Below, one piece after another: positions 18,913 through 42,388 of a stretch of 64,000 nucleotides of DNA. A program made the translations under genes and the position numbers. Each line of letters begins with the position of its first letter. Position 1 is the stretch's first letter. The notes below the pieces were generated by a model that was given only the letters and a program-made list of their open reading frames with translations, was not told where the DNA came from and did no database searches. The stretch comes from Pseudomonadota bacterium (GTDB taxonomy: Bacteria > Desulfobacterota > Desulfobulbia > Desulfobulbales > JAGXFP01), in contig JAHJAA010000009.1 of NCBI GenBank assembly GCA_018814305.1, forward strand, positions 1 through 64,000. Direction: 5' to 3'.

Positions 18913-19920
18913 ATGCAGATCTATAAAAGATTATTTCTTGTTGCTTTGTTTTTTTTGAGTTCCCTGCCGGTTATGGCCTGGGCGGCAAATGATGACGGTT
19001 CCGTCAAGGACCCGACCAAGACTGCCCAGGAGTTCATGGCCAAGGGTATTGAATCAGCCAGGTCCGGTCAAATTGACCAGGCCCGGACGGCCTTTGAAAA
19101 CGCCACCCGGATTGCCCCAGAACTGGCACCCATGGCCTGGGCCGGTTTGGGTATGGCCCTTGGTGGCCAGGGCCGTTGGCTGGAGGCTGTGGTTGAATTT
19201 AAAAAGGTCGTCGCTTTGCAACCGGCAGATATGAGGGCTCATTTTAATCTGGCCAATGCCTACCTCTCGGCCGGGGAGCGTGATCAGGCCATTGGCGAGT
19301 ACCGCAACATGATTGAACTTGATTCGAAGCTGGACTGGGCCCATTTTAATTTGGCGTCTCTGTATCTCCAGAAAGAGGAGACCAGCAGCGCCATCGAAGA
19401 GTTTGAAAAGGCCGCCGAACTCAATCCCGCCTTACCGGCATCCTACGAAAAGCTCGGAGTATTGTACGATCAAGTCGGGATGACCGAGAAGGCTATTGCC
19501 GCCTATGAAAAGGCTATTGAACTTGCCCCCCTGAACGGAACAACCCAGTACAACCTTGGGGTTGTTTACCTGAAAAATGGCGATGTCTTCAAGGGGGAAG
19601 CGGCCTATCGGAAGGCCATCGAATTGATGCCAAATAACGCTGAAGCCTACAATAATATCGGGACAATTTATCTTTCCCGTCAGGATCCCCAGGGAGCCAT
19701 TCCTTTTTTCTTGAAGTCGGTGGAACTGAAACCGGATCTTGAACAGGGCCTGATCAACCTGTCGGTTTCCTACCGGGATATCAAGGATTTTGAATCGGCC
19801 TTGCTTTATGCCCAAAAAGCCAAGGACATCGGGATCAATCGCGCTCAGGTTTTGATTGAGAGTATTCAGCGAAAAATGGCCGAAAATCAAGGCGTCAAGG
19901 ACGCTTCTCCGGCCCAATGA
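18913..19920 (+). CDS. Exported TPR-repeat protein
   Basis: 335 residues from the ATG at 18913 (GGAG 12 bases upstream), chosen because the signal peptide starts there; the reading frame is open further upstream but that part is not protein-like and contains the promoter. After the signal peptide (cleavage near AWAAND) about eight TPR units run from about 35 to 320, for example LDWAHFNLASLYLQKEE and AYNNIGTIYLSRQDPQGA. It is probably a periplasmic scaffold. It is followed 38 bases later by a small exported protein gene on the same transcript. Confidence 0.85.
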   Translation: MQIYKRLFLVALFFLSSLPVMAWAANDDGSVKDPTKTAQEFMAKGIESARSGQIDQARTAFENATRIAPELAPMAWAGLGMALGGQGRWLEAVVEFKKVVALQPADMRAHFNLANAYLSAGERDQAIGEYRNMIELDSKLDWAHFNLASLYLQKEETSSAIEEFEKAAELNPALPASYEKLGVLYDQVGMTEKAIAAYEKAIELAPLNGTTQYNLGVVYLKNGDVFKGEAAYRKAIELMPNNAEAYNNIGTIYLSRQDPQGAIPFFLKSVELKPDLEQGLINLSVSYRDIKDFESALLYAQKAKDIGINRAQVLIESIQRKMAENQGVKDASPAQ

Positions 19921-19958
19921 TCTCCTCTGACACCATTTTAAAAAAACTGGGAGCTGTT

Positions 19959-20396
19959 ATGAAATATAGATATTTTCCCCTGCTCGTGATGGGTCTGTTG
20001 CTGTTTGGGGCAAACTTCCTGTCTGCTATACCTGTTGATGCGGCGCCACTGTCCAGCGCCGAGGCCCTGCAGGAGAGGGTCAACGCCCTCTGGCAGGCCA
20101 AGCAGGAGAATGATTGGGAGAAAGTGTATGGGATGTCTGACCAAAAATTCAGGAAAACCGTGACCCAGAAAAAGTTCCTCCAGGGGAGATCCATGGTCAT
20201 TAACGGATATTCCATCTCAACGGTTGAGGTCGATCCGGACAGTCAACTCAAGGGGGCCAGCCTGGTCATCTTCAAGACCATTAAATTTGCCATGCCCTTT
20301 GAAATCAGTATCAAGGATGAATGGGTTAATGAGGATGGGGTCTGGAATGTGAAACTCTCTGATCCCAGGACCCCTTTTGACACGATGACTCAATAG
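19959..20396 (+). CDS. Small exported protein, possibly NTF2-like
   Basis: 145 residues from the ATG at 19959 (GGGAG six bases upstream); an earlier in-frame ATG at 19917 overlaps the TPR stop but lacks an RBS and delays the signal peptide. The signal peptide (about 1-27) is followed by a helix with WQAKQENDWEKVYGM and a beta-rich half, a pattern common in NTF2-like or DUF4440-type folds. I do not recognise a precise family. It is the last gene before a palindromic element and a terminator. Confidence 0.7.
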   Translation: MKYRYFPLLVMGLLLFGANFLSAIPVDAAPLSSAEALQERVNALWQAKQENDWEKVYGMSDQKFRKTVTQKKFLQGRSMVINGYSISTVEVDPDSQLKGASLVIFKTIKFAMPFEISIKDEWVNEDGVWNVKLSDPRTPFDTMTQ

Positions 20397-20703: not shown

Positions 20704-21759
20704 TTATTTTTGTAATGTTTTATCGATAATAGCGGAGAACTCCTCAAGCGGCTGGGCCCCTTTCACCATTATTCCGTTGATGAAGAAGGTCGGGGTTGAG
20801 TTTACTCCGGCCCGGTTGCCATCAGCCAGGTCAAGGTCGATTTTGTCCTTAAAACGACCTGAGTCAATACATGATTTCAGTATTTCCATGTCCAGGCCGG
20901 CCTTTTCGGCAAACTCCGGGATGGTAGACTCAGCCAGGAGGGTTTGATTCTCGAACATGATATCATGGAGCTTCCAGAACTTTTCACTGGACTGGTCGTT
21001 GGCGCAGAGACCATATTCCGCGGCCATTCTGGCGTATTCGTGGGAGGGGAGGGGGAAATTTTTGAAGATCAGACGAACCTGGTCGCCGTATTTTTCGAGA
21101 ACTTCGGCGATGGTGACTGCCGCTCGGGAGCAATAGGGACATTGGAACTCAGAAAATTCGACGATGGTTACCTTGGCATCGAGAGCACCCTTGGATTGAT
21201 CCTCCTTGGTTACTGGAATTTCCACCTTCGGTGCCTCCGGCTGGGTCAGATAAACTTCCACCGGATTTTCCCGGGTTGCCTGTTCCAGCCAGAGGTCGAT
21301 GGCGGATTTCCGCTGCAGATCGATCAGATAGGCCTTGATCCGGTCTCGAAGTTGCTGGTTCACTTGATTCTGAGGGACCTTTCTTTCCAGGATAAAGTCG
21401 GTGATCTCTTTCTCCGAAGGCTCTTGAACCTTTATAATGTATTTCTGTAAAAAGGCCTCGGAGCCGAGCCCCTCGCTTCGTGGGTCCTCCTTGATCAACC
21501 GCTCAAGGAGGATGCTCTTCAGCTGATTCATCTTGAGATCAAAGGCCTTCTTTTCGGCGTCGAAAAGTTCCTGCTGGATGTTTTTGCCCACCTCTTCGGT
21601 GGAGATCGATATGTTTTTGAATTTGGCCGCCAGATTCTGGTCAGTGGAACGCTTGTAGATGAAATTTGCTTCCGCCGCTGCCGGTTGGGGACAGGGCAGA
21701 ACCATCATCCCGCCGATGAACGGCAAGAGGGCCAGCCCGATGAGTGTTGATTTCTTCAT
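20704..21759 (-). CDS. DsbA-family thiol oxidoreductase with helical N-terminal domain
   Basis: 351 residues; GGGAGA precedes the ATG. The signal peptide (about 1-29) is followed by a SurA-like helical region (about 45-180) and a thioredoxin-fold domain with CPYC at about 205 (EFSEFQCPYCSR) and the cis-Pro loop STPTFFING. This matches Thioredoxin_4/DsbA-like exported proteins acting on disulfides in the periplasm. Many exported proteins with Cys pairs are encoded nearby (for example 26566-28470), which could be substrates; that link is an inference. Confidence 0.85.
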   Translation of the reverse strand: MKKSTLIGLALLPFIGGMMVLPCPQPAAAEANFIYKRSTDQNLAAKFKNISISTEEVGKNIQQELFDAEKKAFDLKMNQLKSILLERLIKEDPRSEGLGSEAFLQKYIIKVQEPSEKEITDFILERKVPQNQVNQQLRDRIKAYLIDLQRKSAIDLWLEQATRENPVEVYLTQPEAPKVEIPVTKEDQSKGALDAKVTIVEFSEFQCPYCSRAAVTIAEVLEKYGDQVRLIFKNFPLPSHEYARMAAEYGLCANDQSSEKFWKLHDIMFENQTLLAESTIPEFAEKAGLDMEILKSCIDSGRFKDKIDLDLADGNRAGVNSTPTFFINGIMVKGAQPLEEFSAIIDKTLQK

Positions 21760-22008: not shown

Positions 22009-23064
22009 TTATTGGAAAGACCCTGGTGCCTCAGGATCGCTCGTACCTGCTTCTAATTTTTTCCTTTTTACTTCATCAACAAATTGCTGGGGGGTCATGG
22101 ACAGGTATTTGGTGTCCAGACCGTTAAGCTGATCTTTTTCCAGCTGCCGGCGTTTGGCCTTTTCAATGTCCTTCTCCTGGTCATGGAAATCGGCCATCAT
22201 CTGGAGCGCCCTGCTGTCTTCGGGGGTAGTGTCACCCAAGGCAATAACCTCGCCGTTGATCTCGGTGATTCGATGATCATCGGAGATTTGTACCCTGAGA
22301 AGGCCAAGGAACTCACCCCCCAGACTGTTTTGGACAACCGTTGTGCCGTTGATCGTCTCCGGACTCTGGATAAGCTTTCGCCCATGGGCCGCCACGGCCA
22401 CGTCCACCCCCTCAACATCATTGAATTGCAGCAGATTGACTGTTCCCTGGTAACCAAGATGGGAGAGTAAAATAACGATGTCTGCCTGTTTACGGAGCTG
22501 GGGGAGAATCTTCTGTAAATCGTCAACGGGATTGCCTGCGGTATCACCCTCTTTTAGGGTGTCCTCTGCCGGGAGGAAGGTTCCAGCGGTTATCCCGGTG
22601 ATGGCCACGGTCAGCCCACCGACCTGCTTGATTAGATAGGGGACGACGCCCGGCGGGCCGATGAGGTTGGCCGAGATCATCGGTACCTCTGCCTTTGCCG
22701 AAAGTTTGGCGAAAAAATTCCGGCCGAGGCTCAGTTCACCATCGGCAATGTTCATGGCATCGTAACCCATCAAGGCCATGGCGCTAAGGATGGTTTCCGC
22801 CCGGAGCTCGTCAGCGGTTTTACCTTTTTTAAAGGAGTCACCACCGTCAACCAGAATGACGTTAGCATTTTCCTGTCGAATACGATTGATCTCGCCAGCC
22901 CGCCGGGCCAGCCCACCTTTCTTTTCGTGTCAGCCGCAGGGATCAATAAATCCGTCGTTGTCGGCGGTGTACAAAATCACTAGCTCGGTTGAGCACCAGG
23001 CTGGCCTGGGTGAAAACGGGGCGACCAGGAGGGCGAAGAGAAGGGTGAGGATGAGTAGGCGCAT
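22009..23064 (-). CDS. Metallophosphoesterase-fold (5'-nucleotidase-like) exported protein, candidate selenoprotein (Sec45 at TGA 22930-22932)
   Basis: 351 residues if codon 45 (TGA, 22930-22932) is read as selenocysteine. The start at 23064 has GGAG six bases upstream and a signal peptide. The frame gives PCG-TGA-HEKKGGLARRA; from memory, Cys is usual at the TGA position in related 5'-nucleotidase-like proteins (PCGC), but I could not align them. The frame then stays open for 306 codons. Other fold blocks are VDGGDSF, LLSHLGYQG, AAHGRK and VVQNSLGGEFLG; the first metal motif reads DND instead of DxH. An 8-bp hairpin with a GGC loop lies at the SECIS position. If no Sec machinery exists in the genome, this would instead be a nonsense-interrupted gene. 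Confidence 0.7.
22894..22912 (-). promoter_or_regulatory. Putative bacterial SECIS hairpin
   Basis: On the minus strand GCTGGCCC-GGC-GGGCTGGC forms eight pairs (two G-T wobbles) with a three-base loop starting in G. The loop begins 26 bases after the TGA, inside the 16-37 base range described for bacterial SECIS elements. Confidence 0.55.
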
Positions 23065-23244: not shown

Positions 23245-25674
23245 TTATCTTAATGTCGTTCCACTGATCATGGGACTATTCAGACCTCCTATGGCGTAAA
23301 CCCCGGCCAGCCCTGGTCCGGAAATGGTGGTAAAGGTAACATGAGAGATAACTTGGTTGTTGCTACCAGCCAGGTCACGGATGGTCAGGATCTTTTTGCT
23401 TTGGGGCGGGATGGTCAGTTCAAGCGAAAGGTCAGACCTTTGAATACCCGCATTATCAGTTGGTTCAATGAGCACGGAAACCATTTCGGTCAGGGAGGGA
23501 TTGAACAGGGCGAAACCGGTCCACCAGGCATTGTTTGACGCCACGTGGGGCAGTGTCAGTTTTTGGCTGATATCATCTTGATCCAGGAGCGGGTAATAGA
23601 GGTCATCCCCGGAAGTGGCCAAGATACTGAAGCCGGCAAGATCCTGCTCGCCCTTGATCATCATCGCTGAGCGGTTAAGCATTGAATCAGAGACGCCCGG
23701 GAAAAGCCCATTGATTTCCACGGTGGTTTTTTCAAAGGGATTCAGAGTGAGAACCGTCGAAGTGAGGTCGCCGAGATCGACCAGGGTGAGGGTAACTGAG
23801 TTAACGGTATCAGCGACATTGATTAAGGTGAGTGATTGGTTCCAGGAGCCCTTGGCGACCACCTGGGGAAGAAAAAAACTTCGATTGATCCCCAGGGATC
23901 CTAGGGCCTCAGCTTTGGCAACTCCGTTTTCAAGCCATTCGGTATGGGGTTGGATGAGCCCGTTATTTTCGGTCGCGACCAGGACCCAACCGTGATTCTC
24001 ATCATCGATAAAAGGTGAGGTGTTGGCATCGTACTCCAGGGCGCGATTTGCCGGGACCATCAGGGAGGTGGTATCGACTAAAACCCCGTTGGCTGCGTAA
24101 ATTGTAAGGTCGGCGTTTAGGTCGGTCATGGTGGGATTATAAAGCCCCCACTTGACCGAACGGGAATAATCCTGGCTGGTGGAAGTATCGGGAATAACCA
24201 GGCGTGAGCGGGAAGGAGAGGTGCCATAACAGGACATGTTTTTTCCGTAATACCCAAAAAGATTCATCACCGCCAGGGGCGAGGAGGCCAGAATCTTGAC
24301 TCCGGTCAACTGATTCTGGTCGAGGGGAAGAACCTCAAAGTCACTGGTCAATACGGTTTGTTTTTGTCCCGGGGCCAGGGTGAATGGTCCCAGGTAGGTG
24401 GCCAGGGGCAGTCCGTTCTGGTCATAGCCCACCACCATGATTTTTTCGGCGGTGTTTCCCTGGTTATTGGTGATGGCAAAACCACCCCAGCCGAAGCCCT
24501 TCTGGATTTTTGGGTTGGCGAATTCAAAGGTCTTTTTTAGATCAAAATTAAGGGAGTAGATTCCCTCCGGACCATAGCTGTCTGCAGTAAAGGTCAGAGT
24601 GTACGGCGGTGATGTCACCGGTAGGATGATTTCTTGAGATGTGCTGGTCAAGAAGGTCTCATCGGCTATCAGCCCAGTTGCGTCCCGGATTTGCAGCCGG
24701 ATTGACGCTTTGGCGTTGAGGTCTTTTGAGGTCTTTAGAGAAATAGTATCACCCAAATCGGCCTCAATCTGATAAACGTCACGGTCCAGCAACAACAACA
24801 GGTAATCACCGGGATGCAAGCTACCAGTTTGCTCGGATTCAAGATCGTCGTCCCTGGTTCGGGCCAGATCGCGGATCAGGTCGCAGTCCAGATAGGGATT
24901 ACTGGTGTCTTGGGTGATCGGCAGGACCAGTTGTTGGGGATGGTCGTAGACACTCAACCCGGTCCATTCACCTCCGGTGATTTCGGTGCCGGTTTTGAAG
25001 AGATTATAGGTGTAAGTCTTGGTAAGCACCTTGGTCCCCATGAAATCCGGGTCAACCTGATCATCGGCATACCAGATCCGGCAGGTGACACTTTCAATGC
25101 CCCCGGAAGTATTCGAGGTCAGCTCATACCGGTAGACCGGGTAGTTCCATACTTCATCTGAAGGGTCAAGTTCAGCGTAGAATGAGATTCCTTGTTTGAT
25201 ATAGCGGAGGAGCCAGGTGTGAAATACCCTGGGATCAAAGGCGTTTTCACGGAGTTCAATATCATCCTTATGGCAGTAAGTAACCAGCCCTTTTTTATCC
25301 CCGACCTTATACAAAACCTTATCGAGAATGGAGGGCTGGAAATCGATATCCTCGGAAACGGCAGCTGCGGACCAGGCCCCACAAAAGCCGTACCAACCGG
25401 GAGCTGTCGGGTCATAATTATTGTCGAGATACCATTGGGTGGCCGGGCCCCGGCTGATCCCGCTGGTGAGAGTATCGTATTTTTCCAAAGGGGCCGGGTG
25501 ACCGTCATAATCGATGCCGGTGGCCAGTCCTCCGTAAACGGTGGGCCACCAGTAGCCGGACCAAGCAGTGAAATTCGCCGTAGCGGCATCAGTGGCCGCA
25601 AAGGTGAGCGAAGGGACCATCACCCAGGGCAGCAGCGCTATGATCAGCCAACGAAAGGGGGAACAAGAAGCCAT
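23245..25674 (-). CDS. Exported protein with papain/transglutaminase-like N-terminus and repeated beta modules
   Basis: 809 residues. The signal peptide (about 1-27) is followed by a region with WSGYWWP and YGFCGAWSAAAV (Cys near 95), resembling TGase-elicitor or papain-like active-site blocks; a His/Asp partner is not proven. A beta region follows at about 275-385. From about 390 to 809 lie four related modules of about 100 residues with the pattern WxGFxxxN, for example FGWGGFAITNN, VKWGLYNPT, GSWNQSLTLIN and AWWTGFALFNPS. It is probably secreted or surface-located. The start is uncertain because no good RBS is visible. I do not know a specific function. Confidence 0.75.
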   Translation of the reverse strand: MASCSPFRWLIIALLPWVMVPSLTFAATDAATANFTAWSGYWWPTVYGGLATGIDYDGHPAPLEKYDTLTSGISRGPATQWYLDNNYDPTAPGWYGFCGAWSAAAVSEDIDFQPSILDKVLYKVGDKKGLVTYCHKDDIELRENAFDPRVFHTWLLRYIKQGISFYAELDPSDEVWNYPVYRYELTSNTSGGIESVTCRIWYADDQVDPDFMGTKVLTKTYTYNLFKTGTEITGGEWTGLSVYDHPQQLVLPITQDTSNPYLDCDLIRDLARTRDDDLESEQTGSLHPGDYLLLLLDRDVYQIEADLGDTISLKTSKDLNAKASIRLQIRDATGLIADETFLTSTSQEIILPVTSPPYTLTFTADSYGPEGIYSLNFDLKKTFEFANPKIQKGFGWGGFAITNNQGNTAEKIMVVGYDQNGLPLATYLGPFTLAPGQKQTVLTSDFEVLPLDQNQLTGVKILASSPLAVMNLFGYYGKNMSCYGTSPSRSRLVIPDTSTSQDYSRSVKWGLYNPTMTDLNADLTIYAANGVLVDTTSLMVPANRALEYDANTSPFIDDENHGWVLVATENNGLIQPHTEWLENGVAKAEALGSLGINRSFFLPQVVAKGSWNQSLTLINVADTVNSVTLTLVDLGDLTSTVLTLNPFEKTTVEINGLFPGVSDSMLNRSAMMIKGEQDLAGFSILATSGDDLYYPLLDQDDISQKLTLPHVASNNAWWTGFALFNPSLTEMVSVLIEPTDNAGIQRSDLSLELTIPPQSKKILTIRDLAGSNNQVISHVTFTTISGPGLAGVYAIGGLNSPMISGTTLR

Positions 25675-25725: not shown

Positions 25726-26430
25726 TCAGGGTTTAACCGTCAGGGATGTTCGCCATGATTTTCTGGTTGGGGTTTCATCATAAAGCCAGAAGGGTTCTCC
25801 GGTTTTCCAGAGTTGGCGGATCATTGGTTGGTCCGTTTTTATGATGGAAATTAAAGTGAACTCCTGATGGGTGTTGCCCTGGATTGTGTCTGGAGTTAGC
25901 ATCCCTGCTGCCAGGGCCTCGTCTGGTGAAAATGGCAGGAGCGTGCGGATTATCGTTGAAGAAAAGGTGGTGTCAGCCACCGTTGTTTTCAGGTTGAGTT
26001 GTCCTTCTTGAACGTTTAAAGAACCAAGCTGGTCATAGGGGGCTGGAAAGCCGGTGGAAAGGAGAATCGGGCCGTGAACCGATTCCTTAATTTCTATCGT
26101 CTGGTCTCCTCTTTGTAATCGTTTGGTGATCACGGTGACCAGGTTCATTTTATTGTAATCAAGGAGGATCAGGGGAGCCGAGTCAAGTTGTTTGCTAATC
26201 GAAACATTCCCCTGGTCATCTTCCCGGAAGATCCAGTCAATTGATTGGTGCCATTGGCCGGAAGTGTTGTCCAGGTAAACAGAATGGACCGTCGCTTCGT
26301 GATAGGGAGCAGCCAGGGCGGTTGCCTGCAGGAAAAGGTAACCACAGAGTAGATAAATGAAAGGGGTAATGAGCCTTAGCAGTAAAGATTCTCTGGTGGG
26401 CAAAGAAATAAATGTGGTCCAGGATAGCAT
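25726..26430 (-). CDS. Exported protein of unknown function
   Basis: 234 residues. One hydrophobic signal segment (about 17-40, ending in ATALAAPYH) precedes a beta-rich exported domain without recognisable motifs. The gene ends 51 bases before the 809-residue protein gene on the same strand and follows a strong terminator, so the two may form a pair. The start codon is uncertain; no Shine-Dalgarno sequence is clear. Confidence 0.6.
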   Translation of the reverse strand: MLSWTTFISLPTRESLLLRLITPFIYLLCGYLFLQATALAAPYHEATVHSVYLDNTSGQWHQSIDWIFREDDQGNVSISKQLDSAPLILLDYNKMNLVTVITKRLQRGDQTIEIKESVHGPILLSTGFPAPYDQLGSLNVQEGQLNLKTTVADTTFSSTIIRTLLPFSPDEALAAGMLTPDTIQGNTHQEFTLISIIKTDQPMIRQLWKTGEPFWLYDETPTRKSWRTSLTVKP

Positions 26431-26565: not shown

Positions 26566-28470
26566 TTACTGCCAGGCACCAGCGCTTTGGACGTAAGCGG
26601 TGTAGCCGGTTCCTTCATCACCATTACCGGTGAAGGCGAAACCACCACCCAAGCCAAAGGTACAGGTAGCAACGACGGCCACGTTGGCATCACCAACATT
26701 GCCGGTACCAGCGGTCAGGTTAGAGAGCAGGGTAGCCAAGGCGCCTGCATTCCACTGTCCGGCAGCTGCGATGCTCGGGGTGGTATAGGATGCGGTGTCG
26801 CCGTCGCCATCGGTGAAGGCCAGGGTACAGGTCCCGGCTGCGGCAGAACCGTTAACCACGGTGAAGCCGCCCCACCAACCCGCAATCGAGCCGTCCATCG
26901 GAGGCAGGAAGGGGTAGAGCAGGATGGTACCGGTACCGGCTGCAATCGCCGGGCAGGTGGTGACGAAGGTCCCAACGGTCCGGGACTCGGTGAAGATGTT
27001 ACCACAGGGGTACTTGTCCAGAGCGATGGTGAAAACAGCCTCGACGCCGTTGCCGATGATGGAGGTATCATATACCATCAGTGGGAAATCGACAAACAGG
27101 GTGTCATAGGTATCGATACCGGTGATGGCACCGACTCTGCCGGTGGACAGACTGCTCACCCGCTTGCTGGTAGAAACGGCACAGCTACCTGCATCAAAAC
27201 CGGTGGTTGAACCGGTAATTGCAAAGGCGGCAGGAACTGCAGTACCACCAGCAATACAGCCGGTGTCTTGGGTCTGGGACGGAGTATAACCGGTAAGTGC
27301 AACACCAGTCCCGCTGAAATAGACCCCGCTGGAGGCTGTCACGGTCATGTCATAACGATCGCCAGGATCGCCAAAGGGAGAGGCGGCATTGACCAGCATA
27401 CGATTGCCGGTGAACGGATTGGCGCTGTTGGTGGTACAGTAGCCAGTAGGGGCGACTGGAACGGCGGCCATGGTATCTTCGTAATCAAAACTACACTTGC
27501 CCTGGTCACCAATAAGGAGGTTGCCGGTGGCCGGTTTGGCGGTCTTGCCGGAGCAGCTGATCAAACTGATTGCATTGTTTGAAGCGGTATGGGCCAACTG
27601 GGAGTCACCGGTGAAGGTCAGGAAGCTGTTCAAAGAGTTGAAACTGGTGAACATCAGATCACCGCTCATGTTTTCAGCATTGACACACAGGGTGTTCTCA
27701 GCATTAGGAATGTTGTGAGGAGCGGGATACGCAACACCATCATTCAAGGCGATTTCGTCAGTGGTTACATCGCCCCAAACCGTAGCAACACCAGCAACCA
27801 GGGCGGTATTGGTGCCCGTGTTGTTGAGGACGACAAAGCCGTTGTAAGGCTTACCATCAAGCAAACGCATGGTTAATGATGAGTCAGCAGCAACCGTCAG
27901 GGTATCGGTCAAAGTAGCCGCATCGGTGGTTCCATAGACTTTAACCCAGACGCGACGACCATTGGCCGGAGCGCTGACATGGAAGACAACATTTGCCGCA
28001 ACGGTAGCAGCGCCGACATTAGAAACGGTGTTGTTGGTGTAAGGACCAGCGGTTGCGTTGATAGCGAGGCCGGGAAAGGCACCCATGCCAGTCAGGAATG
28101 CATTGGCGTTAGCGATTGTGGTTCCAGCGGCAGCGGCAAGAGGAAAGGCTGCTAAGCCGGCCGCAGTCGAAGTGGCAGGATAGGTGATGTTAAACGCCTC
28201 ATTTCCTATCGCCCGAGCTGAACCGATCATGTAATCGATGCCGGGTGAACAGACGTAGGTGTTGGTGGGCAGATCCATGTACAACCAGTCACCCTCGGTC
28301 AGGATGGTACCAGCGTCAAAGGTCATGGTGATGGAACCAACCTGCTCGCAACTCTTCTTGATGATCGCCGGTGAGGTCAGGGTGACCTGGGCGGTATCAG
28401 CCGCCTGGGCGGTTGCCGCAAATGCCAGCATGGTCCCGGCAAGGGCAAGACTTTTAAATACTCTTTTCAT
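26566..28470 (-). CDS. Abundant-type exported protein, Ala/Thr/Gly rich, possibly surface layer
   Basis: 634 residues. GGAGG lies six bases before the ATG, and the signal peptide is classic (cleavage after TAQA). The mature chain is rich in Ala, Thr and Gly, with very low Lys/Arg and paired Cys residues. The C-terminal part has WWGGFTVVNGS, related in pattern to the modules of the 809-residue protein. Strong RBS, strong terminator and biased composition suggest high expression, as for surface-layer or matrix proteins. I recognise no named family; the function is unknown. Confidence 0.75.
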   Translation of the reverse strand: MKRVFKSLALAGTMLAFAATAQAADTAQVTLTSPAIIKKSCEQVGSITMTFDAGTILTEGDWLYMDLPTNTYVCSPGIDYMIGSARAIGNEAFNITYPATSTAAGLAAFPLAAAAGTTIANANAFLTGMGAFPGLAINATAGPYTNNTVSNVGAATVAANVVFHVSAPANGRRVWVKVYGTTDAATLTDTLTVAADSSLTMRLLDGKPYNGFVVLNNTGTNTALVAGVATVWGDVTTDEIALNDGVAYPAPHNIPNAENTLCVNAENMSGDLMFTSFNSLNSFLTFTGDSQLAHTASNNAISLISCSGKTAKPATGNLLIGDQGKCSFDYEDTMAAVPVAPTGYCTTNSANPFTGNRMLVNAASPFGDPGDRYDMTVTASSGVYFSGTGVALTGYTPSQTQDTGCIAGGTAVPAAFAITGSTTGFDAGSCAVSTSKRVSSLSTGRVGAITGIDTYDTLFVDFPLMVYDTSIIGNGVEAVFTIALDKYPCGNIFTESRTVGTFVTTCPAIAAGTGTILLYPFLPPMDGSIAGWWGGFTVVNGSAAAGTCTLAFTDGDGDTASYTTPSIAAAGQWNAGALATLLSNLTAGTGNVGDANVAVVATCTFGLGGGFAFTGNGDEGTGYTAYVQSAGAWQ

Positions 28471-28714: not shown

Positions 28715-30145
28715 TTACTGTTCGTTCAGGTCAATGTCAAACCAAACATTATGATTTTGGACATTTTTTTCAATAAATTGCAGCGCTTCCGTTGAACTGA
28801 ACAGAATAATCAGATAATAACCAGGTTTGACTCGACTATTGATCTGGCCCTCCAGGTCGGAACGCAGATGGCGCCCGGCCCCGTAGTAGATCACCGGCTG
28901 GTCTGCCACCCCTTCGCCCGGGGTATACAATCCGTCATGGTTGGCATCGCGGTAAACCACGCCCATGAGGGTCGGGTAGGTTTGCTCCTGCTTCTGGACC
29001 AGATCCACGGTGGCCAGGTAATAGCCGTGGCGTTCCCCGCTGAGATCGGTCATTTCAGCCAGGTCTATACTGACCCCGACGGTGTCCGCCAGGGGATGGT
29101 AGAGTGAGGGGAATTTGCAACCGGTCCCCTGGTCGTTGATTAACAGTTGGGCCAGCAGTTCCTGGAGGGCCTGTTCCGGAACGGGGTAGTCCTCGGTTGC
29201 CACCCAGGCGATACCCTCGGTGGCGGAGAGGCCCGGCAGACCGGCCTCGGCAATCCGTGTCTCCAGGGTGGTGCCATTGGGGGAGAGCGGGCCGACATAA
29301 TCGTAGTTGATCATCTCCGTGGCGTGAAGCTGAGCGGTCTCGGCCAGGATCGGTTCGCTGATCATCGGGGGCAGACCCAGCGGGTTTGGGAGCGTTGAAT
29401 CAGGACACTGGGCGCGATTGATTTCCAGGAAGGTCTCGGTCTTGACCGGTTTGACCCTGGCCTGGTTAATTAGCAGCACAAGTTCGCGTTCCAGGGTGGC
29501 CAGATGTTCCCTGGTGATCTCATCCGAGGCAAAGTCACAGGTGGTCAGGTAGGCGTTATAATCTCGCCCCCCCAGTTCCATTTTGCCTGAGCCCATGGCG
29601 AGTCCCACCGTGCTGATCAAGGGATTTAAAAGATAGCGGGGCTCGGTGCGATCCGGATTCAGTTCGTCAAGAAACATATTACGAAAAAGATGTTCCACGG
29701 CCTGGTCCGGGGTAATCAGGTTGACAAAGCTCAAGAGTCCCAACGTCTCACCGACCAGACTGGCCTGGTACCCGGCGTTGGCCAGCCGTTGGCGGACCGT
29801 GGTGCCGTATGCCCCGTCTTTTTCATAGTATTGATTGCGGAACATCTCGTCGGTGTGTAATTGGGCCGTCAGGGATAAGCGATCATTTTTGGTGAGACCG
29901 GGTAGCCCGGAGGTCAGAACCTTGGTCAGTTCCGGTAGGTCGGCCAGGACCTGAGCAGGGTTTAATCCCAGGGCTGCCGCGGTGGTCAAGGGGGACCGAC
30001 GGGCTGCGTTTATCAGGGTCAGGAGTTTAGCGGTCTGTTGCTCATGGTTGGCGGCAGCCAGGGCGGAACGAGCCGCGCCCAGGCCGGTCAGCATGAAAAG
30101 AGCAAGCAGGAAGCAGGTTGCATTTTTGATGGTTAAATGATTCAT
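28715..30145 (-). CDS. Exported protein with two CAP/SCP-like domains
   Basis: 476 residues from the ATG at 30145, chosen because the signal peptide (MNHLTIKNATCFLLALF) starts there; a further upstream start at 30193 is possible. Two SCP/CAP-like units are seen: about 35-215 (LLTLINAARRSPL, LSLTAQLHTDEM) and about 220-400 (LVLLINQARVKPV, ETAQLHATEMINYD, VGVSIDL). The C-terminus (about 400-476) is a small beta domain with YRDANHDGLYTPGEG, an EF-hand-like loop. CAP proteins are secreted and have diverse roles; the role here is unknown. Confidence 0.75.
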   Translation of the reverse strand: MNHLTIKNATCFLLALFMLTGLGAARSALAAANHEQQTAKLLTLINAARRSPLTTAAALGLNPAQVLADLPELTKVLTSGLPGLTKNDRLSLTAQLHTDEMFRNQYYEKDGAYGTTVRQRLANAGYQASLVGETLGLLSFVNLITPDQAVEHLFRNMFLDELNPDRTEPRYLLNPLISTVGLAMGSGKMELGGRDYNAYLTTCDFASDEITREHLATLERELVLLINQARVKPVKTETFLEINRAQCPDSTLPNPLGLPPMISEPILAETAQLHATEMINYDYVGPLSPNGTTLETRIAEAGLPGLSATEGIAWVATEDYPVPEQALQELLAQLLINDQGTGCKFPSLYHPLADTVGVSIDLAEMTDLSGERHGYYLATVDLVQKQEQTYPTLMGVVYRDANHDGLYTPGEGVADQPVIYYGAGRHLRSDLEGQINSRVKPGYYLIILFSSTEALQFIEKNVQNHNVWFDIDLNEQ

Positions 30146-30193
30146 CGTCAAAAAAAATACCGCGTGAGTTACGTTGCCGGGCGTTACGCCCAA

Positions 30194-34815: not shown

Positions 34816-36045
34816 ATGCCATTTTATGAATATAAAGCCAGCGATCTGTCGGGCAAGATCTTCAAGGGAGGCCTGGAGGCGGCGGATGACCAGGGTGCCC
34901 TCGATGAACTTGACGGGTTGGGATATATTCCCATTAAAATCCGCGCCATTGCCGGGGAAAAAAACGGCAGCGGCGACCGAGGATTACCCCTTGTCCTGCA
35001 GAATGTGTTTCGTCGATCCAGGTCCCGGGAGGTCACGGCCTTTACCCAGGATCTGGCCACCCTGCTCAAGGCGGGGTTGCCCATTGACACGTCCTTGCAG
35101 ATTTTGATCGATACCGCTGCCACGGACTTTAGTGGTACGGTGCGGGAAATTTTGTTCACCGTCCAGAAGGGGCAATATCTGTCCGATGCCCTGGCTCAGC
35201 ACCCTGAGGTCTTTAACCGCTTCTACATTAATATGGTGAAAGCCGGTGAGGCGGGCGGGGTGCTGGATGATGTTCTGGAAAGGCTGGGTGCTTTTCTGGA
35301 GTCTTCCCAGGAATTGGTCGATTATATCAAGTCGGCCATGCTCTATCCGCTCTTTCTGCTGGGGGTGGGGTCGTTGTCAATCCTCGTCCTGTTGACCTTT
35401 GTTATTCCCCGGTTTTCAGTGATCTTTCAGGATATGGGGACGGCTATTCCCATGGCGGCCCGGATCCTCCTGGGGGTGAGCGATGGCCTCAAGACCTGGT
35501 GGTGGCTCATGCTGGTCGGCACGGTGGTCGTGGTCGCCGGTTTTATGGTTTATACCGCCAGCGGTCCGGGACGGGCCTGGCTCGATGGCTTTAAGCTGAA
35601 GATCCCTCTGCTTAAAGACCTGATCAAGAAGCAGGAGATAGCGAGGTTCAGCCGGACGCTAGGTACTCTGGTTCATAGCAATGTCCCGATTCTTCAGGCC
35701 CTGGAACTGGTTCGGGATATCATCTCCAATCAAGTGATTGCCGATTCTCTGGGAGAGGTCCACAGCCGGGTTAAAGAGGGCGGTAAGTTGGCCCGCCCCC
35801 TGGCCGCGATCGGACTTTTTCCACCCATGGCCATCCAGATGATCACCGTGGGTGAGGAGACCGGGAAGCTCGATGAGATGTTGTTACGGGTGGCGGACAG
35901 CTATGAGAAGATTGTCCGAAATCTGGTGAAAAAGTACGTCGGACTTATCGAACCGGTGATGATTCTGGCCATGGGGGTGATGATCGGTGGGATTGTCATT
36001 ACCATGCTCATGGGGATCTTCAGTATGAATGATTTGCCGTTTTAG
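34816..36045 (+). CDS. gspF: Type II secretion inner-membrane protein GspF
   Basis: 409 residues, two T2SSF domains (about 70-195 and 270-395), each cytoplasmic helical bundle followed by a transmembrane segment. The N-terminus MPFYEYKASDLSGK and VGEETGKLDEML near 350 are family hallmarks. It forms the platform that interacts with the ATPase GspE and the GspL subunit. A 122-base gap follows before the toxin-antitoxin pair. Confidence 0.9.
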   Translation: MPFYEYKASDLSGKIFKGGLEAADDQGALDELDGLGYIPIKIRAIAGEKNGSGDRGLPLVLQNVFRRSRSREVTAFTQDLATLLKAGLPIDTSLQILIDTAATDFSGTVREILFTVQKGQYLSDALAQHPEVFNRFYINMVKAGEAGGVLDDVLERLGAFLESSQELVDYIKSAMLYPLFLLGVGSLSILVLLTFVIPRFSVIFQDMGTAIPMAARILLGVSDGLKTWWWLMLVGTVVVVAGFMVYTASGPGRAWLDGFKLKIPLLKDLIKKQEIARFSRTLGTLVHSNVPILQALELVRDIISNQVIADSLGEVHSRVKEGGKLARPLAAIGLFPPMAIQMITVGEETGKLDEMLLRVADSYEKIVRNLVKKYVGLIEPVMILAMGVMIGGIVITMLMGIFSMNDLPF

Positions 36046-36167
36046 TCCCTTACCAGTGGTTTTTTTTTAATAAACGTAAACCTGCAGTTAAGGCACTTAT
36101 CCAGGGCCTTAATTTGCTTTCCAGTTTATCTGGGTCAGGGCGAAGGTTGAACTGTAATTGGAGGTAA

Positions 36168-36383
36168 ATGAAAATGAGTACAAAAGAACTTCTTGGGGAG
36201 GCCTTGAAACTTAATTCTTTTGAGCGTTTTTCTCTTGTGGAAAGTTTGCTCAAAAGTCTTGATGAACCGGACAGGGAGTTGGGTGAGATATGGGCGATAG
36301 AAGCTGAAAACAGGCTGCGCGCCTATCGAGAAGGTACGATGGAAGGAATCCCGATGGAGGCGATTTTTAGGGAAAAATCATGA
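36168..36383 (+). CDS. Antitoxin of a RelE/ParE-type module
   Basis: 71 residues, acidic, with the addiction-module pattern LKLNSFERFSLVESLLKSLDEPD and a C-terminal tail typical of unstable antitoxins (PF09720-like). GGAGG lies four bases before the first ATG; an ATG six bases later is possible. Its stop overlaps the toxin start (ATGA). It probably also binds DNA weakly or as a complex to repress its own transcript. Confidence 0.8.
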   Translation: MKMSTKELLGEALKLNSFERFSLVESLLKSLDEPDRELGEIWAIEAENRLRAYREGTMEGIPMEAIFREKS

Positions 36384-36670
36384 AGGTTGTTTTTATTAAA
36401 AAGGCAAAGCAGGAACTTGAGGATTCAGTTTGTTTATATGAGCTGGAATTTACTGGACTTGGCAGGAGATTTAAGGAGGAAGTGCGCAAGGCGGTTTTGC
36501 GAATCAAAGACTACCCTTTTGCCTGGTCGGTCGAGCGTGGTGATGTGAGAAAATGTGTTCTTCATAAGTTCCCCTTTAAATTGCTGTATGCCGTCGAGGA
36601 TGAATATTTGCTGGTGATTGCTTTGGCGCACCAGCATCGTAAACCCGACTACGGGATCGAGATATCATGA
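36380..36670 (+). CDS. RelE/ParE-family toxin
   Basis: 96 residues. VVFIKKAKQELEDSVCLYE, FKEEVRKAV and the C-terminal core VRKCVLHKFPFKLLYAVED are characteristic of the ParE/RelE superfamily. Members cut mRNA on the ribosome or poison gyrase; which is not clear here. Its stop overlaps the start of gspH (ATGA), so the module is embedded in the T2SS operon and coupled to it. Confidence 0.85.
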   Translation: MKVVFIKKAKQELEDSVCLYELEFTGLGRRFKEEVRKAVLRIKDYPFAWSVERGDVRKCVLHKFPFKLLYAVEDEYLLVIALAHQHRKPDYGIEIS

Positions 36671-37221
36671 AGAAGACTGGCAGTCGGCACGGAGTTTCAC
36701 CGTCCTTTCTCTCTTCTCCCTTCTGCTATTTCCATTCCCAAAAGGCCTTCTCTCTCCTGGAATTGATGGTTGTGATGGTGGTGATCGGGTTGATCACTGC
36801 GGTGACGGCTCCCAACTTCGGCCGGGCGCTGGCACCGCTCCAGGCCCGGAGCAGTGTCAAGAAAATTGCCGCGATCCTGCGGTATGCCCGGAGTCAGGCC
36901 GTGACCAGACAGGGGATCTACCGGGTCCATTTTGATTTTCCAGGTCGGGAGGTGGAGTTGCGGGCCGATCCAGCCGTGACCCCTGAGGCTCCAGCGGGAG
37001 GGACTCCTGGAATAGCCCGAAGCGAGATCTATACCCTGCCGGAAAACGTTACCTTCCAGACTGCGGGGGGGGGAGCGGCGCTCCTTGCTGATACGGTTTA
37101 TGCCATCAGTTTCTATCCCGCAGGGAATTCCAGCGGCGGCGAGGTGACCATTACCGGTCGGAGCGGGCACGCCTATGGGGTCAAGGTTGATTTTATCACC
37201 GGGATTACCGAGGTGTTCTGA
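36667..37221 (+). CDS. gspH: Pseudopilin GspH-like
   Basis: 184 residues. A long leader (about 27 residues) precedes the prepilin motif KAFSLLELMVV, with Glu at mature position 5. The residue before the cleavage site is Ala, not the usual Gly. The GspH-type C-terminal domain follows (about 55-184). It overlaps the toxin gene by four bases. GspH is one of the minor pseudopilins at the tip of the pseudopilus. Confidence 0.8.
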   Translation: MKKTGSRHGVSPSFLSSPFCYFHSQKAFSLLELMVVMVVIGLITAVTAPNFGRALAPLQARSSVKKIAAILRYARSQAVTRQGIYRVHFDFPGREVELRADPAVTPEAPAGGTPGIARSEIYTLPENVTFQTAGGGAALLADTVYAISFYPAGNSSGGEVTITGRSGHAYGVKVDFITGITEVF

Positions 37222-37266
37222 GGGAGAAGTGAGCGGGATTGAAGTCTTTGTGATCACGGTAAAATA

Positions 37267-37755
37267 ATGAAATCGGTTGCATCGAAACAAAGAATTTTGC
37301 GGCGGAGGAATGGAGGGGGCTTTCCGTCCTTTTTCCCACCATCTGCCCCCGGTCTTGCCGCCGGGTTCACCCTTATGGAGATTATGGTGGCGGTCTTGGT
37401 ACTGGCCATCGCCCTGACGATGATTATGCAGCTCTTGGCCGGAGGGTTTCGCTCGGAAAAGCTCTCTGAGGATTACTTTGAGGCCGTGGTTTGCGGACGG
37501 GGTGGAATGGAGTCAATTATGCTTAAGAAGTCGCTTGCCGCCAGGACCATGACCGGTTCCTGTGAGGGGGGGTACCATTGGCAGGCGGTTATTGCCCCGG
37601 ATGCGGTCCAGGTGGAAGGCAAGGTGCGGAGTGGTCTGGTCCCGTTTCGGATCGATCTGGAAGTCCTTTGGCCATCCGGTCGGGCCAACAGGTCTTTTCG
37701 GCTGGCCTCATTGCATCTCGCCCAACCAGAGCAAGAGGATGGACGTGCGCAATAA
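37267..37755 (+). CDS. gspI: Pseudopilin GspI-like
   Basis: 162 residues. The prepilin motif AGFTLMEIMVAV lies after a 33-residue basic leader, longer than typical. GspI forms the tip complex with GspJ and GspK. Its last 17 bases overlap gspJ. Confidence 0.75.
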   Translation: MKSVASKQRILRRRNGGGFPSFFPPSAPGLAAGFTLMEIMVAVLVLAIALTMIMQLLAGGFRSEKLSEDYFEAVVCGRGGMESIMLKKSLAARTMTGSCEGGYHWQAVIAPDAVQVEGKVRSGLVPFRIDLEVLWPSGRANRSFRLASLHLAQPEQEDGRAQ

Positions 37756-38383
37756 GGGCTTTACCCTGTTGGAATTGATGCTTTCCATGACCATCATGGC
37801 GGTGATCGCCGGGATCTGTTTCGGGGTTTTTCATCTGGGGGTCAGGGCCTGGGAACAGGGGGAAACTCGGGTGATCGCCAATCAGCGGTTACGGATTATC
37901 CCCGAATTGCTCAGGCGTCAGTTGGCTTCGGTTTCCTTGCCGGAATGGATCCGCCGAGATCGTCGTTTTTGGTTTTTTTCCGGGACGAGCCGGTCGCTTG
38001 AATTTTTTTCACGGATCTCCCTCTTGACCCAGCAGGACGAAGGGGGGGCCTTGGTCCACTATCGGGTCCGGTCCGATTCGGCAGGACGGGATACCCTCGA
38101 GCTGTATGAAATGGATCTTCTTCACCTCCGCCAGTTGGGGGGGGATGTGCCGGTTTTGACCGATGGAGATTTTCAAGGGTTGGTTTCCGGCTGGCACTCT
38201 GTGGTTTTTGCCTATCTTGGCCCGGAGCCGTTGAATCCAGAAGATGATCCTTGGGTGGGGGAATGGGACTCCACCACCAGAAAGGGAATCCCCCGGGCAG
38301 TGCGGGTATCCGTGCAATCGCGGGCCGGGGGGGGGCCATTGGTCTGGATTATTCCTCTGGCCGTAACCCGTGATGATGGCTGA
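37739..38383 (+). CDS. gspJ: Pseudopilin GspJ-like
   Basis: 214 residues from the ATG at 37739, inside the end of gspI; longer open frame upstream is not protein-like. A short leader MDVRNKG precedes FTLLELMLSMTIM. GspJ-type domain with VHYRVRSDSAG and MDLLHLRQLGG. It partners GspI and GspK. Confidence 0.8.
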   Translation: MDVRNKGFTLLELMLSMTIMAVIAGICFGVFHLGVRAWEQGETRVIANQRLRIIPELLRRQLASVSLPEWIRRDRRFWFFSGTSRSLEFFSRISLLTQQDEGGALVHYRVRSDSAGRDTLELYEMDLLHLRQLGGDVPVLTDGDFQGLVSGWHSVVFAYLGPEPLNPEDDPWVGEWDSTTRKGIPRAVRVSVQSRAGGGPLVWIIPLAVTRDDG

Positions 38384-39434
38384 ATCATTGGATATGAAAG
38401 TTGCTTTTCGATCTGGATGCTCCCAGCAGGGAATCGTCTTGTTGACGGTCCTCTGGATTCTGGTTCTGCTGGCCGTGATGGTCGGGCAGTTCTGTTATTC
38501 CATGCGGACCGAGTTGAATGTTACCCGGAATCTCCGCGATGAGACTGTGGGGTATTATCTGGCCCGGGCCGGGATAAACCTTGCCACTCTTAAGGTCATC
38601 GACGGGATTTCCGGGGATATTTATCTCCCGGATGGGACGGATGGCGAAGAAGGGTCGGTCTGGCGGATCAATCAGGAGATTTCCCCGATCCCGTTTGGCG
38701 GGGGGCGGATTCAGGTAAAGATTGACAACGAGAGCGGGAAAATCAATATTAACGAGGCTGATGTTCTTCTGCTGCAGATGTTGTTCAAATCATTCGGTAT
38801 TCCGGGGGACCAGGAAGCCACCATTGTCGAATCCATCCTGGACTGGCGGGATATGGATAATTTTCACCGCAACTATGGTGCCGAGAATGATTATTATCAG
38901 AATCTGCCCCAGCCCTACGCTTCGAACAATGGCCCTTTTCGTTCAATAGAAGAGCTCCTCCTGGTCAAGGGTGTGACCCGGGAGTTATGGCAGATGGGCC
39001 TTGGGCGGATGGTCACCGTCCAGAGTGACCTGGTCGAAAATACCTTGATCATGGGTTCTACCCCTGAAGATGAGGAGAAGCGAAAAATCAATATTAATGC
39101 TGCTCCGCCCGAGGTTCTGCGGTGTTTTCCTGGGATGACCAAGGAGATTCTTCAGGCGATCACCGAATATCGCCGGGAGCGGGATTTTGAGACGAAGAAT
39201 CAGTTCCGGCGTCTGGTCGGCGATTTGATGTTTCAAAAAATATTACCGTATATTTCGGTCCGAAATTCTTCATATTATACCATTCGGGCCACTGGGTTGC
39301 CGGAGGGCACTCAGGTCAGATCCACAGTTGAAGCCTTGGTTCGGCTTGATTCACGGAAGGGAACGGTCCGGGTGATCAACTGGGTTGATTATATTGATCC
39401 AGGCAGGGGAGAGGCAGTGGCTGATGGGGTGTAG
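38373..39434 (+). CDS. gspK: Pseudopilin GspK-like
   Basis: 353 residues from the ATG at 38373 (GTG at 38370 and ATGs at 38376 or 38394 are alternatives). It overlaps gspJ by 11 bases. The leader ends QQGIVLLTVLWILVLLAV; mature residue 5 is Leu rather than Glu, as is normal for GspK. The large domain has the paired helical regions INEADVLLLQML and INAAPPEVLRCF and the sequence LVKGVTRELWQMG. GspK caps the pseudopilus tip. Confidence 0.85.
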   Translation: MMAESLDMKVAFRSGCSQQGIVLLTVLWILVLLAVMVGQFCYSMRTELNVTRNLRDETVGYYLARAGINLATLKVIDGISGDIYLPDGTDGEEGSVWRINQEISPIPFGGGRIQVKIDNESGKININEADVLLLQMLFKSFGIPGDQEATIVESILDWRDMDNFHRNYGAENDYYQNLPQPYASNNGPFRSIEELLLVKGVTRELWQMGLGRMVTVQSDLVENTLIMGSTPEDEEKRKININAAPPEVLRCFPGMTKEILQAITEYRRERDFETKNQFRRLVGDLMFQKILPYISVRNSSYYTIRATGLPEGTQVRSTVEALVRLDSRKGTVRVINWVDYIDPGRGEAVADGV

Positions 39435-39479
39435 GTGCCGGCGGTAGGCCAAAGTTGACTTTTTTTCGGGCGCGGCCCG

Positions 39480-40853
39480 GTGAGTGAGACAATGTTTAAT
39501 AGAAACAGCATAGGGATAGAGATTGACCGGGAGGGCTGTGTGCTGGTTTGGCTGCAGAGCCGATTCCGGGAAGCGGTCATGATGGCCCAACGGTCCTGCC
39601 CCTTGCCCGCTCTGGGCGGCAGCGAGGACCGGCAGCGGGAGGTTGCGACTCGGCTTAAAGAATTTATTGGGGAGAACGGGATCGATTCTCCGGAAATTTA
39701 TCTGGCCCTGCCCACGGAAACGGGAATCGTTCGTGATCTTCAGTTTCCCCTGGCCGTGAAGGAGAATTTTCGGGAGACCATCCGGCTGGAGATGGAGAAG
39801 TATATCCCCCTGCCGGTTGATCAAATTTATTATGATTGGCAGATCATCGCCGAAGATAAAAAGAACAAGCAGTTGACCATTCTCCTGGTCGTGATCAGGA
39901 AGGAGGATCTTGATCCATGGTTGCGGATGTGCCGGGAATTTGAGCTTGGGATCTCCGGGATTGAGCTTACCGCAACTGCCCTGGCCAACGGACTTGCCGG
40001 AATGATCGGGAAACCCGCCCGGGAGGCGGCTGTTTATTTCCATCCGGGCAGTGATCGGACCACTCTCTGTCTGTTGTCCGGGGGGCAATTGCTGGCGGCC
40101 AGGACTGTGGTCGAGACGACTCTGTCTCTGCCGGAACTCCTGGCGCCGGAGCTGAAGATTGCCCGGGAGCACGGGGTGTTGGCCGGTAAACCGCTGGGGA
40201 TTATGATCGGTTCGGAGGCGGTTCGGTTTGGGTCGGAGATCCCCGGTTCCTCTGAAATTGGCCCGGTTGTGCCCCTTGCTGATTCGCTGGGGGCGGTGGA
40301 GCAACTTGCCGCCTATGGTCTGGCCAGAAAAGGACTTGGTCGGGTGTCCAGCCGGATCAACCTGATGCCGACTGGCCAGCGTAAGCGGCCGGATCGCCAG
40401 GTAATGTATCTTGTTATCGGTCTGTTGGCGGTCAATATTTTTCTCTTTATGGGCTGGGCAGGGAGCTTGATAATTCAAAGTAAGCTCGATAATACCCGGC
40501 TTGACGCGGAGATCAGCAAACTATCGGACCGGACCAGGGATCTTGTCGTGATCGATCAGCAGGTCCGTGAGGCTCGGACGAAGATCGCGCTGCTCAGTGA
40601 CTTCCAATCAGGCCACCCTGCTGCGGCCGATTTGATGCTTGAATTGTCCCGGATTTTGCCATCTTCCGCCTGGCTGGATACGTTGACCATCAAGGGAGGA
40701 AAAATCGAAATTTCCGGGCGTGGCGAGTCGGTTGCCGATCTGGTTACTCTGCTGGAAGCCTCCGATGTTTTTAGAAATGCCGCGTTCCTCTCCACCATCA
40801 TCAGGGGGCAGGACGGTAAGGAAAATTTTAAGATCCAGATGGAGATCGAGTAG
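39480..40853 (+). CDS. gspL: GspL-type protein (PilM-like actin fold plus PilN-like region)
   Basis: 457 residues from GTG at 39480; ATG at 39492 is also possible. The cytoplasmic N-terminus (about 1-300) has an actin-like PilM/GspL fold (GIEIDREGCVL, LEMEKYIPLPVDQI). A transmembrane segment at about 309-328 is followed by a coiled segment and a periplasmic ferredoxin-like part with LSRILPSSAWLDTLTI as in PilN. GspL links the ATPase to the inner-membrane assembly. The gene is followed by palindrome C. Confidence 0.85.
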   Translation: MSETMFNRNSIGIEIDREGCVLVWLQSRFREAVMMAQRSCPLPALGGSEDRQREVATRLKEFIGENGIDSPEIYLALPTETGIVRDLQFPLAVKENFRETIRLEMEKYIPLPVDQIYYDWQIIAEDKKNKQLTILLVVIRKEDLDPWLRMCREFELGISGIELTATALANGLAGMIGKPAREAAVYFHPGSDRTTLCLLSGGQLLAARTVVETTLSLPELLAPELKIAREHGVLAGKPLGIMIGSEAVRFGSEIPGSSEIGPVVPLADSLGAVEQLAAYGLARKGLGRVSSRINLMPTGQRKRPDRQVMYLVIGLLAVNIFLFMGWAGSLIIQSKLDNTRLDAEISKLSDRTRDLVVIDQQVREARTKIALLSDFQSGHPAAADLMLELSRILPSSAWLDTLTIKGGKIEISGRGESVADLVTLLEASDVFRNAAFLSTIIRGQDGKENFKIQMEIE

Positions 40854-40869
40854 GTCGAAGGGAAGGGAA

Positions 40870-41061
40870 GATGGCGTCGTAAAAAGTCCGATCTACCGCG
40901 TCGTAGCGCGTTTTTGCTCTCTCGGCATACCACATGTATGGCCTCACTCGCAGGTAAGCGAACGATGTGAGACTCCGAAAACACACTACTCCTCGGAGTC
41001 TACGCTTACCTGTAGATCGAAATCTTTACTTAGCCATCGATTTACTTTTTACGAGACCATC
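40870..41061. repeat. Long intergenic palindrome C (inside the T2SS operon)
   Basis: GATGGCGTCGTAAAAAGT (40870-40887) pairs with ACTTTTTACGAGACCATC (41044-41061). Inside are nested arms CGATCTAC/GTAGATCG, CAGGTAAGCG/CGCTTACCTG and GACTCCGA/TCGGAGTC. The element sits between gspL and gspM; the RBS of gspM lies at its edge. Confidence 0.75.
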
Positions 41062-41073
41062 AAGGGAATATCA

Positions 41074-41658
41074 ATGACTTTTTATATCCAACAGAGACGA
41101 CCACTGATCCTGCTGGTCATCGCCAGTATTCTCCTGGTGATGGTGGCCCTGAATTTTCTGCTCCCGATTGATCTGGGGGGGGGCGGTGGGGAACTGGCCG
41201 GGAAGGAAATGCGGATCGTCAATCTGGAGCAGCGTCTTGCCCGGAAAGGGGTGTTGCAGCAGGAGTTCCTCGAACTGAGTCGACAGTTGGCGGGAGCCGA
41301 GACCGGTTTGCTGAATGGTCGGACTCCGGCCCTTGCCGCGGTGGATCTGCAGAATCGTCTCACCGAACTCGTCACCGGAACCGGCGCGGCCATGACCTCT
41401 CAACGGGTCCTGCCCTCTCCTCGGCAGAACACTACAACGCCTTCGCCGTATGTGGAAATTCCCGTACAGATTGCTGCTTCATTGACGGTTCGTCAGCTCA
41501 AGGATTTGTTATACGGGATCAGTGCTTCTCCGGTTTTTATGCAGATCCGTGAGGCTGAAGTCAGAGTGGTCAAGCAGGAGGAAGGAATTCTGCTGGCCAC
41601 CCTCACTGTCTCGGGGGTGATGCCCATGGTTGAAGAGAGCAGGGAGGGAGCCCAATGA
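41074..41658 (+). CDS. gspM: GspM-type (PilO-like) protein
   Basis: 194 residues from the ATG at 41074 (AGGGA upstream); the open frame further upstream lies inside the palindrome and gspL and is not real. A short cytoplasmic N-terminus is followed by one transmembrane segment (about 11-33), a coiled coil and a small periplasmic domain (about 95-190), as in GspM and PilO. It pairs with GspL in the inner-membrane platform. Confidence 0.8.
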   Translation: MTFYIQQRRPLILLVIASILLVMVALNFLLPIDLGGGGGELAGKEMRIVNLEQRLARKGVLQQEFLELSRQLAGAETGLLNGRTPALAAVDLQNRLTELVTGTGAAMTSQRVLPSPRQNTTTPSPYVEIPVQIAASLTVRQLKDLLYGISASPVFMQIREAEVRVVKQEEGILLATLTVSGVMPMVEESREGAQ

Positions 41659-42380
41659 AGCGTCTGGTCCTGCTGTTGGTTCTGTTCGTGGCCGCCCTGG
41701 TTTTCTCCATTAAGATTTACGGGGTCTGGACCGGGGATCGGGTTGAAGTGAAGCCTGCCGCATCCCAGGCGGCCGTTGCTTCGGTTGGGAAATCGTTCTT
41801 TCGGCGGATGCCGCAACCCCGGGGGGCGTATGAGCCCATCACCGGTCGGAATCTATTCTCTCCTCTTCGACAGGAGGTGATCCCCCCGGTTGAAGAGCTT
41901 GCCTCGCAAGCGCCGGTGGTGGCAGCCCCCGAAATCAAGGAAGTGAAAATAGCCGGCCGCGAGATCGTGCTTTTTGGCACCATGTCTCTGGGGACCGGGC
42001 AATCGGCCTTGATCAGTAATCCATTTAAGTCCGAGGATGACTCCAGGGAGAATCGATGGGTGAAGATTGGTGATCAGCTCGCCAACCTGCAAGTGGATGA
42101 TATTCAGCGTGATCGGCTGATTTTACGGGAAGGAAATAAGCGGTATGTCATCCTGTTGCGTGATCAGACGAAACCGAAAATCGCCAAGTCCGGGGAGCCT
42201 TCGGCCACGGTGTCGAACCGGAGCCAGCCCACTGTGGTTTCGACGGATGTTGCTCCTGTGAACACTTCGGTCGGTAAGGCCTCGATTGGTTCCGGCCCGG
42301 CGGGCAAGACGGATAAACAAGAGGGGGATGAGTATGTGATTGTCAATACCCCCTTCGGTCCTCAGAGAATAAGGAAATAG
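41655..42380 (+). CDS. gspC: GspC/PilP-like inner-membrane linker protein
   Basis: 241 residues; overlaps gspM by four bases. One N-terminal transmembrane segment (about 3-22) precedes a homology-region-like beta domain (about 60-175; ITGRNLFSPLRQ, LFGTMSLGTGQSALI). The tail is low complexity. GspC connects the inner-membrane platform with the secretin GspD, encoded next. No PDZ or coiled-coil domain is seen. Confidence 0.75.
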   Translation: MKRLVLLLVLFVAALVFSIKIYGVWTGDRVEVKPAASQAAVASVGKSFFRRMPQPRGAYEPITGRNLFSPLRQEVIPPVEELASQAPVVAAPEIKEVKIAGREIVLFGTMSLGTGQSALISNPFKSEDDSRENRWVKIGDQLANLQVDDIQRDRLILREGNKRYVILLRDQTKPKIAKSGEPSATVSNRSQPTVVSTDVAPVNTSVGKASIGSGPAGKTDKQEGDEYVIVNTPFGPQRIRK

Positions 42381-42388
42381 AACCCGTG

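Follow-up and report, generated by a model that had tools for sequence, protein, structure and literature searches.

We found a gene that most probably encodes an exported selenocysteine (Sec) protein with a decayed metal site and a selenol or thiol role in a secretion-linked gene cluster, a reading to which we assign a probability of about 0.85. The gene lies in a 64,000-nucleotide stretch of contig JAHJAA010000009.1 (positions 1 to 64,000; assembly GCA_018814305.1), hereafter the window, from a bacterium of the Desulfobulbales. Judged from sequence, Sec is almost certainly inserted at codon 45. SelB and tRNA-Sec would decode UGA-45 as selenocysteine, aided by a hairpin 26 nt downstream, and the predicted product is a bare catalytic domain of the UshA/SoxB type that would be exported. 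The classical two-metal phosphoesterase site seems to have decayed in this family, with retention of Sec, or of Cys in some relatives. Sequence and fold alignment place Sec in the loop that joins strand 1 to helix 1, close to the UshA/CD73 metal site. The likeliest role would be periplasmic selenol/thiol chemistry, either redox or sulfur transfer, although we offer this specific assignment only tentatively. Such chemistry may serve a conserved cluster of exported proteins tied to a type II secretion system.

The gene and its recoding elements are as follows:

22009-23064, minus strand: gene of 351 codons for the UshA-like selenoprotein; the product has a signal peptide and a UshA/CD73 catalytic-domain fold, without a heme domain
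22930-22932, minus strand: in-frame TGA at codon 45, the Sec of a PCGU motif; relatives align TGA or Cys with it
22894-22912, minus strand: SECIS-like hairpin with an 8-bp stem and a GGC loop, with covariation over 38 relatives

The TGA is the sole internal stop of the frame, which ends with TAA at codon 352. Ahead of the TGA, the translation reads as a signal peptide followed by a segment ending in DGFIDPCG; past it, the frame continues HEKKGGLARRAGEI. When the bases of the 306 codons downstream of the TGA were shuffled 20,000 times, the frame never remained open. A GGAG motif stands directly 5′ of the ATG. The initial annotation had described a TGA at codon 45 that interrupts an otherwise intact frame, preceded by a signal peptide and a PCG-ending segment; the coordinates, the 306 open downstream codons and the translated segment all agree with that description. 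We also considered an alternative genetic code with TGA as a sense codon and rejected it, as TGA is an ordinary stop in the window, terminating 16 of its 40 long open reading frames.

The genome carries the components needed for Sec insertion, for which a search had been proposed. A tRNA-Sec with anticodon TCA scores above the Rfam cut-off, and SelA is present (624 bits). SelB is represented by two homologues over the cut-off (L039, G000:C10; L040, G000:C19), just one of which adjoins the tRNA-Sec gene. There are also two copies of SelD, one with an in-frame TGA of its own (L055).

The protein is a member of a short, heme-less branch of the UshA-like CxU selenoproteins (COG0737). Its closest model is NF041198 (UshA_like_PCGU; 162.6 bits, cut-off 275; E 1.3e-47 over 298 residues). 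It also matches NF049981 (UshA_like_Sel_2; 59.1 bits, cut-off 140), and SoxB and 5'-nucleotidase models score between and below these two, at E ~1e-22. The metallophosphoesterase fold first read from the sequence is borne out by an AlphaFold model (pLDDT 90) and by Foldseek, which matches it to the CD73/UshA catalytic domain (E 6.6e-25), with the whole domain present. As in other members, a CxU motif follows strand 1 of the UshA-type domain and precedes GGL. With NF041198 the protein shares the PCGU motif, the Sec column, the UshA-type N-terminal domain and a signal peptide. It differs in lacking the tetraheme cytochrome domain at the C terminus that most of the long members seen carry (it has no CXXCH motif), in having four rather than five residues from Sec to GGL, and in keeping more metal ligands. 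A second UshA-like copy in the same genome (C24) scores 566 bits against NF041198 and has four CXXCH motifs. Five short relatives that also have four residues from Sec to GGL score 170 to 195 bits against NF041198, below its cut-off of 275. In a quick tree with modest support, the rows nearest to the window protein are L148, L228 and L059. The short single-domain form and the equivalent place of Sec are also features of NF049981 (UshA-like (seleno)protein family 2); however, the motif listed for that family is CxxU (PMC13188914), whereas ours is CxU. SoxB thiosulfohydrolase and the UshA/CD73 5'-nucleotidases share the catalytic-domain fold and overall alignment. In contrast to these enzymes, the window protein has no second domain, its catalytic His and several metal ligands are replaced, and it has Sec.

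The initial annotation did not count this family among described selenoproteins. That view must be given up: UshA-like CxU selenoproteins were listed by 2008, with 76 in marine metagenomes (PMC2398784), and are also found in PMC9312934 and PMC13188914 and in the NCBIfam models NF041198 and NF049981. In a limited literature check, we found no assigned function for UshA-like selenoproteins, and no mention of the heme-less branch, of the exclusion between Sec and metal ligands described below, or of the gene cluster. Within the scope of that check, these three elements appear to be new. Because the short branch falls below the NCBIfam cut-offs, model-based annotation may miss the Sec codon and truncate the gene.

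Relatives place the TGA on a single, conserved column. Across 151 aligned rows, the window TGA aligns with a column that is TGA in most and Cys in 10. The set retrieved without requiring TGA has U at this column in 55 of 79 rows and C in 9 of 79. An order-wide search with the protein, in which stops were read through, found a relative in 233 of 258 genomes, and most of these relatives contain a single TGA. The nearest relatives, from a Desulfosudis MAG (L148, 40% identity) and a Deltaproteobacteria MAG (L228, 36%), have TGA at the same codon; both were retrieved by a DNA pattern that required TGA. That pattern had 115 matches, among which about 60 loci held true relatives, and since it is biased to TGA by construction, it was left out of estimates of Sec frequency. 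A protein-based scan of the genome contigs gave no match, because its query carried Cys for Sec and such a stretch back-translates to Cys codons, so that TGA relatives are missed. Cys had been expected at position 45 in homologues, and the aligned relatives have both residues, including LCGC and PCGC forms in L061, L076, L092 and L173. Sec and Cys also swap within the same gene cluster (PLRLU-KGETLGG in L233, PTQMC-GGVHAGG in L234 and PTLAC-GGELQGG in L235). As separate observations, a Candidatus Eisenbacteria contig (L173:172-3083) has a tandem TGA copy and Cys copy of a heme-type UshA-like gene, and four loci (L166, L191, L205 and L225) have two TGA copies each of the UshA-like gene.

The hairpin gives evidence of another kind. 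Its stem pairs 22912-22905 with 22901-22894, and the GGC loop begins 26 nt 3′ of the TGA, within the bacterial SECIS range, at the position first reported. On its own sequence, its stability is unremarkable (z −0.47; P = 0.06 against synonymous recoding). When 121 TGA genes were scored, their best hairpins within the bacterial SECIS range averaged 17.1, compared with 9.0 elsewhere in the same genes, an excess that is partly due to the conserved codons of GGLARRA; the mean z against synonymous recoding was 1.3. We found that the hairpin is conserved in relatives with compensatory changes. Over the 38 relatives with the same spacing, there were 24 double-compensated cells, compared with 6.8 after shuffling, and the covariation score was 0.307, compared with 0.169 (none of 500 shuffles was as high). 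The signal was lost when the pairing partners were slid. Pair 27-33 has nine CG/UA switches and pair 24-36 has five pair types. Both join third (wobble) codon positions, so their covariation cannot stem from the protein sequence. The significance of this predicted element therefore comes from comparative covariation and not from the fold energy of a single sequence.

These observations bear directly on whether the TGA is simply a nonsense mutation, leaving a pseudogene or a short N-terminal fragment only. A stop codon is indeed present, and we found no orthologue with more than 40% identity to the window protein for a direct test of selection. Nevertheless, we consider this explanation highly improbable, as the TGA falls on the one alignment column that holds TGA or Cys in dozens of relatives, the remaining frame is intact with a confident predicted fold, the SECIS hairpin is conserved and the Sec machinery is present. 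The relatives are likewise full-length, and we see no sign of the pseudogene that had been named as one possible refutation. The initial selenoprotein reading is thus upheld by the machinery, the TGA/Cys column and the covarying hairpin together. What the Sec residue does is a separate matter, for which the metal ligands are informative. We scored the full phosphoesterase ligand and catalytic set at eight positions (D, H, D, N, H, H, H, H), which from established knowledge of these enzymes carry the two-metal site and catalytic His of UshA/CD73. The 126 Sec rows keep 0 to 4 of the eight and the 10 Cys rows 0 to 3; rows with neither residue keep 6 to 8. Across the aligned relatives, no row combines Sec or Cys at the site with an intact phosphoesterase ligand set, which suggests that Sec accompanies a replaced chemistry. 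The window protein reads D, D, D, D, G, H, H, R at these positions and so lacks an intact two-metal set. D35, D76, H202 and H227 are kept, and Asp stands at 37 and 108, where His and Asn are usual; the DND motif pointed out earlier is D35-N-D37. These residues, the complete catalytic domain and the matches to SoxB and 5'-nucleotidase models would favor a functional hydrolase that depends on metal and resembles a phosphoesterase or SoxB, with Sec serving as an extra metal ligand or tuning the site. However, the catalytic His (109) is Gly and the His at 229 is Arg, and the heme branch, with far fewer ligands than the window protein, still retains Sec. We regard such a hydrolase as unlikely, although a residual metal site is possible in the branch of the window protein. 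Ordinary phosphatase activity has probably been lost. The earlier proposal, which preferred a redox or metal protein to a phosphatase, is plausible; the ligand loss favors it without amounting to proof.

The C43-G-U45 motif raises a further alternative, in which a selenenylsulfide forms reversibly between Sec45 and Cys43 and the protein acts as a thiol-disulfide oxidoreductase partner of a DsbA-like protein, whose gene (20704-21759, minus strand) adjoins on the same strand. Against this, the upstream Cys of PCGU is absent from several Sec relatives (SGU, PLRLU), which indicates that Sec probably acts alone. In addition, the conserved cluster neighbors do not include the DsbA-like gene, and we rejected its product as a functional partner. 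We consider the selenenylsulfide reading improbable, somewhat more so than the hydrolase, and prefer an exported Sec protein with a decayed metal site. The DsbA-like protein itself has a CPYC motif, with Cys and without TGA, and weakly matches NF041057 (Rcas_1661 thioredoxin-like (seleno)lipoprotein; 103.5 bits, cut-off 190).

The surroundings of the selenoprotein gene are as follows:

19917-20396, plus strand: exported protein, 159 aa, family 3 (9 loci), no Pfam or NCBIfam match
23245-25674, minus strand: transglutaminase-like exported protein, 809 aa, PF16683 at 32.5 bits (cut-off 25)
25726-26430, minus strand: exported protein, 234 aa, family 2 (11 loci), no Pfam match
26566-28470, minus strand: exported protein, 634 aa, no Pfam match
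28715-30193, minus strand: CAP-domain exported protein, PF00188 (4 loci)
34816-44629, plus strand: type II secretion-like genes (T2SSF, T2SSK, PilN/PilM-like, secretin)

The gene for the 809-aa protein lies 180 bp upstream of the selenoprotein gene on the same strand, and its product falls into one similarity group with the 634-aa protein. Homologues of the 809-aa protein are rare, occurring in 16 of 395 genomes of the phylum and 3 of 253 of the order, with the window's own genome counted. A UshA-like gene adjoins such a homologue at 14 of 18 loci, 12 with TGA and 2 with Cys (L234 and L235). Among the remaining four, L245 and L262 are short contigs, L263 matches the query only partly, and L253 has no UshA-like gene within 19.5 kb of its 809-aa homologue. 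In the cluster, the 234-aa family recurs at 11 loci, the 159-aa family at 9, a secretin at 6 and the CAP protein at 4; besides the window, the loci with the secretin homologue next to the cluster include L235, L254, L255, L257 and L262. By gene order, the selenoprotein gene belongs to a conserved, rare cluster of exported proteins, at several loci beside a type II secretin. It is conceivable, though we hold it rather doubtful, that an undescribed system of exported proteins linked to type II secretion has the UshA-like selenoprotein as its dedicated enzyme, whose Sec or Cys, on a repurposed metallophosphoesterase fold, would modify or mature the secreted partners. That proposed system would comprise the transglutaminase-like protein, the CAP-domain protein and three further families that match no model. 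Together, the exclusion between Sec and ligands and the tight, rare cluster make the function of the family testable, and the cluster names candidate partners. At L254 to L261, heme-type UshA-like selenoproteins with four CXXCH motifs fill the cluster slot that is held in the window by the heme-less copy.
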